NCBI RefSeq assembly: GCF_023650955.1
Contig: NZ_CP098039.1
Location: forward strand, 2,542,001-2,606,000
Direction of reading: 5' to 3'
Source: Thermosynechococcus sp. HN-54
GTDB taxonomy: Bacteria; Cyanobacteriota; Cyanobacteriia; Thermosynechococcales; Thermosynechococcaceae
DNA: 64,000 nucleotides
Shown here: one piece after another, positions 33,056 to 36,601 of the stretch
Layout: every line of letters begins with the position of its first letter
How positions within the stretch are numbered: position 1 is the first letter of the stretch
Notes under the pieces: generated by a model
Database searches by the model: none
Seen by the model: the letters and a program-made list of their open reading frames with translations, nothing else
Told to the model about the DNA's origin: nothing
Translations under genes and position numbers: made by a program

Positions 33056-34783
33056 ATGCAAGACTTTGCCGTTGTGATTGTCGGTGGTGGCCTAGCAGGC
33101 TGTCGTGCTGCTTTGGAAATTTGCCGCCTTGCCCCGGAGACCGCCATTGCCCTTGTGGCCAAAACCCATCCGATTCGTTCCCATTCCGTTGCCGCCCAAG
33201 GGGGCATTGCCGCCACGCTGAAAAATGTGGATACAGAAGACTCTTGGGAAAGCCATGCTTTTGATACGGTCAAAGGATCCGACTTCCTAGCGGATCAGGA
33301 TGCGGTTGCCCTCCTCGCCCAAGAAGCCCCCGATGTCGTCATTGACCTTGAACATTTGGGCGTGCTTTTTTCCCGCTTGCCCGATGGCCGCATTGCCCAA
33401 CGTCCCTTTGGCGGTCACACTCACCAGCGCACCTGCTATGCAGCCGATAAAACGGGTCACGCCATTCTCCACGAACTCTATTGCAATCTCCTGAAGTACA
33501 ACGTCACGTTTTTTAGCGAATGGTATGTGCTGCGGCTGATTGTCGAAGATCAGCAGGCCAAGGGGGTCGTCGCTTACCACATTGAAACCGGTCAACTGGA
33601 AATCCTGCGGGCGCCCGCAATTCTTTTTGCAACGGGTGGGTATGGGCGCGTCTTTAATACCACGTCCAATGATTTTGCCTCTACGGGGGATGGATTGGCG
33701 ATGACCGCACGAGCGGGCTTGCCCCTTGAGGATATGGAATTTGTTCAATTTCACCCTACAGGGTTGTACCCTGCTGGAGTCTTGATTTCTGAGGCAGTGC
33801 GGGGCGAAGGGGCGTATCTGATCAATGCGGCAGGTGAACGCTTTATGGCGCGCTATGCCCCGACTCGCATGGAATTAGCACCGCGCGATATTACCTCGCG
33901 GGCGATCGCCATCGAAATTCGTGAAGGGCGAGGGATTCACAGTGATGGCTCTGCCGGTGGGCCTTTTGTCTATCTCGATGTCCGCCACTTGGGTCGGGAA
34001 AAAATCATGAGTCGCATTCCCTTTTGCTGGGAGGAAGCCCATCGCTTGGCGGGGGTGGATGCCGTGGTGGAACCCATTCCTGTCCGTCCGACGGTGCACT
34101 ATTCAATGGGGGGGATTCCGGTCAATGTCAATGGGCAGGTGCGCGCCAATGCCACGGAACTAGTCACAGGGTTTTATGCCGCTGGCGAATGTGCCTGTGT
34201 GTCGGTGCATGGTGCCAATCGGTTGGGGAGTAATTCCCTGTTAGAGTGTGTCGTCTATGGCCGCCGTACGGGTGCCGCGATCGCCAAGGATTTACCGAGC
34301 TTGCCCCAACCCCAATTTGACCCCCAGCCCTATCTACAGGCAGCGGAACAACAGATTCAACACCTTTTTGACCAAGCGGGGGATTTGCGTATTGCCCAAC
34401 TGCGGCAGCAGGTTCAAGATTGCATGACCCAGTACTGTGGCGTGTTTCGCACTGCTGACTTAATGCAGAGGGGGTTGGAAGAATTGCAGCGGCTGAAGGC
34501 AGCCTATGCGCGGATTCGTCTCGACGATCGCCAGCGCTATTGGAACACAGAGCTGTTAGAAGCCTTTGAGTTAGCAAATATCCTCGTGGTTGCGGAAGTG
34601 ATTTTGAGCAGCGCCCTTGCTCGCCAAGAAAGTCGGGGTGCCCATTTCCGTGAGGACTATCCGCAGCGGGATGATGTTAATTTTCTGCGCCACACCTTGG
34701 CCACCTACTACAGCGACGGCATTAGGATTGACTATCTGCCGGTAACCATCACCATGTTTCCGCCCCAAGAGCGCAAGTACTAG
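33056..34783 (+). CDS. sdhA: Succinate dehydrogenase/fumarate reductase flavoprotein subunit
   Basis: A 575-residue FAD protein. The N-terminal Rossmann motif is VIVGGGLAGCRAAL, followed by the histidyl-FAD region HSVAAQGGIAATL. Other motifs are FGGHTHQRTCYAADKTGH, TGLYPAGVLISEAVRGEG, the HYSMGGIPVN active-site segment and GANRLGSNSLLECVVYG. It oxidises succinate in the thylakoid or plasma membrane and feeds the plastoquinone pool in cyanobacteria. The iron-sulfur subunit is not adjacent; cyanobacterial sdh genes are often scattered. The next gene, a K+ channel, starts four bases after the stop. Confidence 0.9.
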   Translation: MQDFAVVIVGGGLAGCRAALEICRLAPETAIALVAKTHPIRSHSVAAQGGIAATLKNVDTEDSWESHAFDTVKGSDFLADQDAVALLAQEAPDVVIDLEHLGVLFSRLPDGRIAQRPFGGHTHQRTCYAADKTGHAILHELYCNLLKYNVTFFSEWYVLRLIVEDQQAKGVVAYHIETGQLEILRAPAILFATGGYGRVFNTTSNDFASTGDGLAMTARAGLPLEDMEFVQFHPTGLYPAGVLISEAVRGEGAYLINAAGERFMARYAPTRMELAPRDITSRAIAIEIREGRGIHSDGSAGGPFVYLDVRHLGREKIMSRIPFCWEEAHRLAGVDAVVEPIPVRPTVHYSMGGIPVNVNGQVRANATELVTGFYAAGECACVSVHGANRLGSNSLLECVVYGRRTGAAIAKDLPSLPQPQFDPQPYLQAAEQQIQHLFDQAGDLRIAQLRQQVQDCMTQYCGVFRTADLMQRGLEELQRLKAAYARIRLDDRQRYWNTELLEAFELANILVVAEVILSSALARQESRGAHFREDYPQRDDVNFLRHTLATYYSDGIRIDYLPVTITMFPPQERKY

Positions 34784-34787
34784 GTCT

Positions 34788-35837
34788 ATGCGACGGTTAC
34801 CTGCAACCCCTGCCCTCAACCGCTTTATTATTGGCATCACCCTCTTTGTTCTGATTATGTTGGTGGCGGTGGTGGGCTACACCAGCTTTGGCTGGAACTG
34901 GCTCGATGCCCTCTACATGTACGTGATCACCGTCTTTGGCATTGGCTATAGTGAAGTGCGACCGCTGATTACGCCGGCGCAACGCTTCTTCAACATGATG
35001 ATTATTGTGGCCGGCAGTGCCGCAACCGTCTATACCATTGGTGCGGTGGTGCAACTGTTTACGGAAGGGGAGATCAAACGCCTACTCGATATTCAACGGG
35101 CGAGCCGCGACATCAACAAACTCAACCGCCATGTCATTGTCTGTGGCTTTGGCCGTATTGGTCAGGTGATGGCTCAGGAATTATCCGCATTAAAAACCCC
35201 CTTTGTGATTTTGGATGTCAATGAACAACGCATTGATTTAGCAATCCAGTTGGGCTATTTGGCCTATTTGGGGAGTGCAGCGGAGGAGGAAACCCTGCGA
35301 GTGGTGGGCATTGATCGGGCGATCGCCCTCGCAACTGTGCTGCCCAATGACACGATCAATGTCTTTATTACACTGACGGCGCGATCCATGAATCCGAATC
35401 TGCTGATTGTGGCACGGGCAAATTTAGCCACGACGGAATCAAAGCTACGCATGGCAGGGGCAGATCACATCGTCTTGCCGACAAAAATTGGTGCCAGTCA
35501 AATGACTAACTTGATTCGGCGGCCGCGCATTGATTTCCTTGAGCAAACGGGCGATCGCGAGACCCTGAATGAACTGTTGAGCCACATTGACGCTCGCCTG
35601 GAGGAACTGGAGATTACCCCCGATTACCCTTACGTGGGTACGCGCTTGACAGGACTTGAGGTGCGCGGCCAAGGGGCATTTATTATTGTTGGCTTACGCA
35701 AAAGTGACGGCCAATTGTTTCCGACTCGCGCCAATCCCCTTGTCGAAGTGGGCGATACATTGATTCTATTGGGACACGCCCAAGATGCCCCCAAGCTCAT
35801 TCGCAAATATACTGCCCGCTCTCGCCACTCCCAATGA
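34788..35837 (+). CDS. Potassium channel with RCK (TrkA-N/TrkA-C) domain, atypical filter
   Basis: A 349-residue protein. Two transmembrane helices (about 13-32 and 68-90) flank a pore loop; a gating domain with HVIVCGFGRIGQV (Rossmann, about 113) and a C-terminal RCK_C domain (about 255-340) follow. The filter region, TVFGIGYSE at residues 48-56, differs from the canonical TVGYGD: the first Thr position is shifted and the second Gly is Ser. So K+ selectivity cannot be assumed; related cyanobacterial proteins do keep a TrkA-N tail. It begins four bases after sdhA and overlaps the following RCK gene (ATGA). Confidence 0.82.
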   Translation: MRRLPATPALNRFIIGITLFVLIMLVAVVGYTSFGWNWLDALYMYVITVFGIGYSEVRPLITPAQRFFNMMIIVAGSAATVYTIGAVVQLFTEGEIKRLLDIQRASRDINKLNRHVIVCGFGRIGQVMAQELSALKTPFVILDVNEQRIDLAIQLGYLAYLGSAAEEETLRVVGIDRAIALATVLPNDTINVFITLTARSMNPNLLIVARANLATTESKLRMAGADHIVLPTKIGASQMTNLIRRPRIDFLEQTGDRETLNELLSHIDARLEELEITPDYPYVGTRLTGLEVRGQGAFIIVGLRKSDGQLFPTRANPLVEVGDTLILLGHAQDAPKLIRKYTARSRHSQ

Positions 35838-36601
35838 CAACCCCCTCTCATCTCGCTGACCTCAAGGATCACGTCATTATTTGCGGCTACGGCCCCATAG
35901 GTCGCACGTTGGCAATGAACCTAGCTGCTGCTCAAATTCCTTTTGTGGTGATTGACAACCAGCGGCAGCGACTCCGGCTCGCCCAGCAGTCCGGCCATCT
36001 TTTCTATCGCGGTGACGATCTCATGGATGAAAATGAACTCTTGGCGGTGGGGGTGGATCGCGCGCGCACGGTGGTGGCTGTCTTGCCCGATGATGCCAGC
36101 AATGTCTTTATCACGCTGATTGCCCGTCGTCTGAATCCCAACCTACAGATCTTGGCCTATGGCGAGTTGCCGGCCACAGAGTCTAAACTGCGTTTTGCTG
36201 GCGCCGATCATGTCGTCTTGCCCTCCAGTATCAGTGCCCAACGCATGGTGCAGCTCATTACTCGCCCCACCGTTTTGGATTTTCTTGAGGAAAAAGAGGA
36301 ACGCAGTCACCTGATTGAGCTATTGAGTCAGTTAGATCTCCAGATTGAGGAGTTTACGCTGCCCTTGGAGTCCTCCCTTGTGGGGCTGGCGATCGCCGAT
36401 GTGGAAGCAAAAGGCCGGGGTCGCTTTATTATTGTCGCTGTCCGCCATCAGAACGGTGCCTTGGTGACCCATCCCCCCTTAACCCTGCCCCTAGCGCCGG
36501 GGGACACCTTGATTGCCCTTGGCCGAGCAGCGGAAATTAAAACCTTCTTTCGCCAATATGCCCACCGCCAGCCCATTCGCTATCGCGGCCTAGGACGCTA
36601 G
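35834..36601 (+). CDS. Stand-alone RCK/TrkA protein (partner of the K+ channel)
   Basis: A 255-residue soluble protein. A TrkA-N domain with CGYGPIGRTLA (about 15-30) and an Asp at the strand-2 end (VVIDNQ) binds nucleotide; a TrkA-C domain (about 165-240) ends the protein. It lacks membrane helices. Its sequence is collinear with the RCK half of the preceding channel (FITLIARRLNPN matches FITLTARSMNPN), which suggests a duplication. The ATGA overlap with the channel gene implies coupled synthesis. It may form a mixed gating ring with the channel's own RCK domains; this is an inference. It converges on the permease with a four-base overlap. Confidence 0.83.
   Translation: MTTPSHLADLKDHVIICGYGPIGRTLAMNLAAAQIPFVVIDNQRQRLRLAQQSGHLFYRGDDLMDENELLAVGVDRARTVVAVLPDDASNVFITLIARRLNPNLQILAYGELPATESKLRFAGADHVVLPSSISAQRMVQLITRPTVLDFLEEKEERSHLIELLSQLDLQIEEFTLPLESSLVGLAIADVEAKGRGRFIIVAVRHQNGALVTHPPLTLPLAPGDTLIALGRAAEIKTFFRQYAHRQPIRYRGLGR

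Follow-up and report, generated by a model that had tools for sequence, protein, structure and literature searches.

Why should a channel gene that already encodes an RCK domain overlap a second gene that encodes only an RCK? The question is posed by two plus-strand genes in the window (the whole 64,000-nucleotide stretch analysed here, part of a 2.7 Mb single-contig genome of the hot-spring cyanobacterium Thermosynechococcus sp. HN-54). The first (positions 34788-35837) encodes a 349-residue 2TM channel subunit with a tethered RCK, in which profile matches over the cut-off place Pfam Ion_trans_2 at residues 19-92, TrkA_N at 116-231 and TrkA_C at 271-339, and which matches both MthK and GsuK. 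Its pore domain (residues 19-92, positions 34842-35063, plus strand; PF07885, E 5.6e-13) is followed by the tethered RCK (positions 35130-35834, plus strand), which matches TrkA_N and TrkA_C and, by column tally, carries the nucleotide-type motif GFGRIG and an Asp after beta2. The order of a 2TM pore, RCK_N and RCK_C places the protein among the 2TM-RCK (MthK-like) channels. The second gene (positions 35834-36601, plus strand) encodes a 255-residue protein that matches TrkA_N and TrkA_C and is 47% identical to the tethered RCK (tblastn). Its start overlaps the channel stop in an ATGA (positions 35834-35837, plus strand), and the channel ATG at 34788 begins four bases after the sdhA stop (34781-34783), both junctions being as the earlier note described them. 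Downstream, the neighboring gene is encoded on the opposite strand.

Both open reading frames are more than chance frames, given their TrkA_N matches (E 3e-30 and 4e-27) and the purifying selection seen in the genus of the window organism, where dN/dS for the two genes is 0.04-0.12 in 15 of 16 comparisons, those for which dS was finite. For the RCK-only genes taken separately, dN/dS is 0.04-0.11 in seven of eight comparisons, the eighth being saturated, which indicates purifying selection. MthK is among the top structural matches of the AlphaFold model of the channel (Z 19.5 over 256 residues, rmsd 14.1, for a model of middling confidence). The two models, with mean pLDDT of 72 and 73 from 7 and 6 sequences, are of middling confidence and are taken as support for the predicted fold alone.

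The reading that we favor, and consider fairly probable, is that this locus encodes an MthK-like channel built from two genes, with a mixed gating ring. Four copies of the pore protein would form a 2TM tetramer, the four tethered RCKs would pair with four copies of the RCK-only protein to complete a ring of eight, and translational coupling at the ATGA could supply the two proteins at close to 1:1; this assembly and its stoichiometry are what we infer from gene arrangement and homology. The likeness to MthK lies in the 2TM pore with one RCK, in an ungapped alignment through the filter and in the ring itself, which in MthK is reported to contain four loose and four tethered RCKs (PMC9440719), as proposed here. 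The lower four RCKs of MthK, however, are reported to arise from an internal start, Met107, within the same gene (PMC9440719; PMC4565861), whereas the window holds a second, diverged gene; the two systems also differ in the filter (TVGYGD in MthK, GIGYSE in the window) and in the Ca2+ site of MthK, which is not kept here. GsuK, the dual-RCK channel of Geobacter, similarly brings two types of RCK together in a ring and shares the nucleotide motif, but both of its RCKs are described as lying on one chain (PMC3510474) rather than on two proteins. Among cyanobacterial K+ channel homologues, Synechocystis Sll0536 and SynCaK (Sll0993) were compared by description: the parts of PMC13099474 consulted state that Sll0536 is without functional information and do not mention a separate RCK gene for either (PMC13099474). 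KtrAB and TrkHA likewise join a separate soluble RCK protein to a membrane subunit, yet in these systems the membrane part is a TrkH-type transporter and in the window it is a 2TM channel; the sole TrkH match in the genome (G000:C1:501408-502634) is far from the window.

To place the locus among its relatives, we defined the channel family as 123 proteins, distinct over their last 200 residues, that share 43% or more BLASTP identity with the window channel, and a sister set as 29 RCK channels below that identity (28 cyanobacterial, one from Tamlana). The loci for the family count were chosen, among the matches listed, for genus spread and represent part of the matching genomes, and an RCK-only neighbor was scored as far as each locus reached. 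Before counting, we left out duplicates, frames that were short or truncated, and the broken fragments L083 and L111, both from the MAG G242, in which a channel-family member is split into three frames across these two loci. The figure of 356/388 mixes family and sister matches.

If the ring of MthK is completed from an internal start, single-gene relatives of the window channel may do the same. A Met occupies one internal column in 76 of the 109 family channels that lack an RCK-only neighbor, vs. none of the 14 two-gene channels; in the window this column is Ala105 (codon at positions 35100-35102, plus strand), so that at this position the internal Met of MthK is absent and a separate gene is present. 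In all 76 cases the RCK's first His follows 10 residues after the Met, and the same distance holds between MthK residue 107 and its RCK His, in a linker that aligners gap. In two of the two-gene channels a Met does occur nearby, three residues ahead of the column. A Shine-Dalgarno-like element (GGAG, AGGA or GAGG, 4-18 bases upstream) precedes the internal Met in 36 of the 76 genes and is absent from the other 40. By comparison, it is found at 60 of the 758 remaining internal ATGs of these genes and in 4 of the 47 genes that lack the Met. A Gly at -4 to the Met is encoded by GGA in 29 of 41 cases, against 241 of the 1309 Gly codons at other places in these genes; among 31 Gly columns, none has a larger share of GGA (next 0.43, median 0.17). 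Such a bias among synonymous codons suggests a ribosome binding site upstream of the internal Met. Caution is called for, as a Shine-Dalgarno-like signal is also frequent at another Met column (27/76), perhaps through its adjacent Gly codons. Many single-gene relatives seem to make a loose RCK in the manner of MthK with its Met107, by initiating translation at the internal Met a short way ahead of the RCK.

The start of the separate gene fits the same scheme. Of the 13 RCK-only proteins whose start is on the locus, nine start 12 residues ahead of the RCK His, and one each 8, 10, 13 and 21 residues ahead of it; 11 of the 13 starts thus fall at most two residues from the place of the internal Met, mostly two residues earlier. 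The separate gene resembles an independent version of the internal product, and in the lineage of the window, where the Met is absent, a duplicated RCK gene would supply the loose half of the ring.

The association between the Met and the separate gene should be weighed with the phylogeny in mind. Because the Met state changes just 4-6 times on the tree, the association amounts to far fewer than 123 independent cases, and a tree-aware pair test of Met against Shine-Dalgarno signal, with few changes to draw on, ran slightly in the opposite direction on supported branches under strict coding. Moreover, 33 single-gene channels are without the internal Met (two of them have a Met 1-2 residues later), and no convincing alternative start codon was seen in the DNA of these Met-less genes. 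In three channels (L026, L028 and L030), ATA replaces the internal ATG. Since 26 of the 33 fall with the two-gene channels and the RCK-only proteins in one clade (support 86) that contains no Met-bearing member, the Met probably disappeared ahead of the duplication, or else arose elsewhere, and a one-step replacement is the less likely course. The order suggested by the tree is probably that the internal Met was lost first and that the duplicate arose later in one branch.

We read the RCK-only gene as a tandem duplicate, since diverged, of the RCK in its channel, on the basis of a tree of 163 RCK regions, a quick tree for which the tool gave a long-branch warning. In it the RCK-only proteins group together (SH-aLRT 98), as do the two-gene channels (96), and the two groups branch in parallel order; a tree holding both groups together was 32 log units better than the free tree (p-AU 0.886). 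From this grouping and the clade test, the duplication most likely took place in the ancestor of the four genera that carry the pair. Within the window's family, the RCK-only protein is matched in 22 of 29 genomes at E <= 1e-30. Fourteen of these genomes hold a separate RCK-only gene (11 in the window's genus and one each in g2, g4 and g7); in the other eight (g3, g5, g6, g8 and g9) the match is the channel's RCK, broken in one of them. Twelve of the 13 pairs that lie whole on one locus, from four genera, have the two genes joined at -4 to +2 nt. In the remaining pair (G030), the frames are 1.8 kb apart, separated by an IS200-type transposase and an OrfB/IS605 gene (L042:6272-8029), an insertion that removes the ATG of the RCK-only gene. 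A search at E <= 1e-12 with a criterion of open-frame length found no RCK-only frame of the window's kind in 60 further cyanobacterial genomes; in this search the gene was not found in 30 of the 32 genomes with Met-less single-gene channels, nor in 30 genomes with Met-bearing ones.

These distributions bear on a simpler explanation, in which the channel is a single-protein RCK channel and the RCK-only duplicate acts elsewhere, for instance with a Trk/Ktr transporter, or is decaying. The loose RCK may indeed be dispensable in some relatives, as 33 single-gene channels lack the Met and the RCK-only gene was not found in 30 of 32 of their genomes, and decay would agree with the loss of the RCK-only ATG to the insertion in G030 and with a frame break in the RCK-only gene of one MAG (G202). 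However, the low dN/dS of RCK-only genes in the window's genus is at odds with decay, the gene stays beside the channel across four genera, and TrkH and another RCK-only, KtrA-like protein are encoded elsewhere in the genome. We thus consider this explanation unlikely and retain the mixed ring of tethered and separate RCKs. The earlier note had proposed such a ring, and the proposal gains indirect support from the abutting genes in four genera, the origin by duplication, the similar start and the lack of the internal Met in 14/14 two-gene channels.

Does the upstream neighbor offer a further clue to function? It had been suggested that the channel might be linked to respiration through its coupling to sdhA, and sdhA does lie directly upstream in 9 of the 11 genomes of the window's genus. 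It is located elsewhere, however, in g2, g4 and g7, and two MAGs of the genus that keep the channel (G202 and G168, 90-92% complete) yielded no close sdhA, just a 43%-identical paralogue. In G168, sdhA remnants (residues 1-27, 489-526 and 559-575; L010:5755-5993 and L023) lie just before the intact channel start. A coupling to sdhA as part of the channel's function was accordingly rejected; a tie to respiration by this route is very improbable, and the adjacency, confined to one genus, looks incidental.

The ligand of the proposed ring can be approached through its binding residues. The Ca2+ residues of MthK (D184, E210 and E212) correspond to V, R and N in the channel and to V, Y and E in the RCK-only protein, so that the gating residues of the MthK site are not conserved as such in either. 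Both RCKs find their best PDB sequence match in the second RCK of GsuK, which for the RCK-only model is also the best match by structure among the chains compared, and which is reported to bind ADP and NAD+ (PMC3510474). Both proteins also have the GxGxxG motif and the acidic residue after beta2 of nucleotide-gated RCK rings of the GsuK and KtrA type. It is therefore possible that both RCKs bind nucleotides such as ADP and NAD+, and the ligand of the ring is probably an adenine nucleotide, not Ca2+ at the MthK site. The Arg of GxGRxG is retained in 14/14 two-gene channels and in 106 of 109 other family members and is lost in all 13 RCK-only proteins that cover the motif. We take this position to be that of Arg16 in KtrA. 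There, Arg16 is described as lying between the ATP phosphates, and the R16A protein as still functional (PMC6957272), which makes the effect of the Arg loss in the RCK-only proteins uncertain.

The remaining question is which ion the pore passes. The earlier note had read the pore loop as TVFGIGYSE in place of TVGYGD and concluded that the channel need not be selective for K+. The letters ITVFGIGYSEV are present, but the ungapped alignment pairs MthK T59-V-G-Y-G-D64 with G51-I-G-Y-S-E56 of the window (positions 34938-34955, plus strand). As MthK aligns gaplessly through the filter, TVGYGD corresponds to GIGYSE, and TVF is the match to the pore helix; an insertion that lengthens the filter is ruled out by the phmmer alignment, which is gapless there. 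The TVGYG signature of K+-selective channels, with its S4 threonine, is thus represented by GIGYS. In the family, the S4-threonine position is Gly in 123/123 members, preceded by Phe in 122 and Tyr in one, whereas in the sister set it is Thr in 26, Ser in two and Gly in one. The filter Asp is Glu in 123/123 family members and in 28/29 of the sister set. At the fifth position, the family has Gly in 114 and Ser in nine, all nine in the window's genus, which has two further members with Gly; the sister set has Gly in 14, Ser in seven, Met in six, and Leu and Thr in one each. Ser and Glu are therefore discarded as the oddity of this filter, both being present in relatives with the usual threonine, and the residue that sets the family apart by alignment is the fixed Gly at S4. 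Elsewhere in the same genome, there is a small channel with SVGYGD, as well as a 472-residue channel-like protein with a Slo-like RCK (L005:943-2361; G000:C1:1932977-1934395, outside the window) whose pore loop, SLVSAEPIGAYP, is without a TVGYGD-type filter.

Doubt about K+ selectivity thus survives on other grounds than Ser and Glu, namely the Gly at S4, for which the mutant data conflict. MthK T59A and NaK2K T63A are reported to be nonselective, and for KcsA T75A/E71A, K+ and Na+ permeability came out equal in one of two force fields (PMC11251424); the same source reports that Kv1.5 T480A and Shaker T442A are still K+ selective (PMC11251424). The Gly substitution itself, KcsA T75G, has been used for perturbing site S4 (PMC7337057). 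One could hence propose that the pore passes cations nonselectively, or is permeable to Na+, by virtue of its S4 Gly, a residue without exception in the family, and such a pore would be compatible with the mixed ring. This is quite possible, though we lean against it: besides the selective Kv1.5 and Shaker mutants, the GY core of the filter is retained and the pore aligns to MthK without gaps. K+ is probably conducted by this pore, whose selectivity may be weak owing to the Gly in place of the S4 threonine, and a reduction of K+ selectivity is plausible. An RCK-gated channel reported to be Ca2+ selective is found in CASTOR/DMI1 of plants (PMC6697748), which differs in being a eukaryotic nuclear channel.

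The component parts of this system are of known kinds, and neither the two-gene arrangement nor the family-wide Gly filter was found in the open-licence literature searched, which leaves their absence from the literature unproven. A bolder reading, which we hold tentatively and think rather doubtful, is that the locus captures a step on the way to dual-RCK rings, in which an internal-start subunit has become a diverged separate gene with two unlike ligand sites in the ring, combined with a family filter that is weakly K+ selective for lack of the S4 threonine. In BK, two RCKs are fused in one chain. The eight RCKs of a ring are thus known to come from one gene with two starts (MthK) or from a fused pair (GsuK and BK), and two separate genes, if the proposed ring is true, would be a third way of supplying them. 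A mixed ring would then bear two unlike nucleotide sites, and the two genes would allow both ring positions to be mutated separately, something not easily done with the single MthK gene. Where mutant data conflict, a family in which Gly is fixed at S4 offers a natural test of whether the threonine is needed for K+ selectivity.
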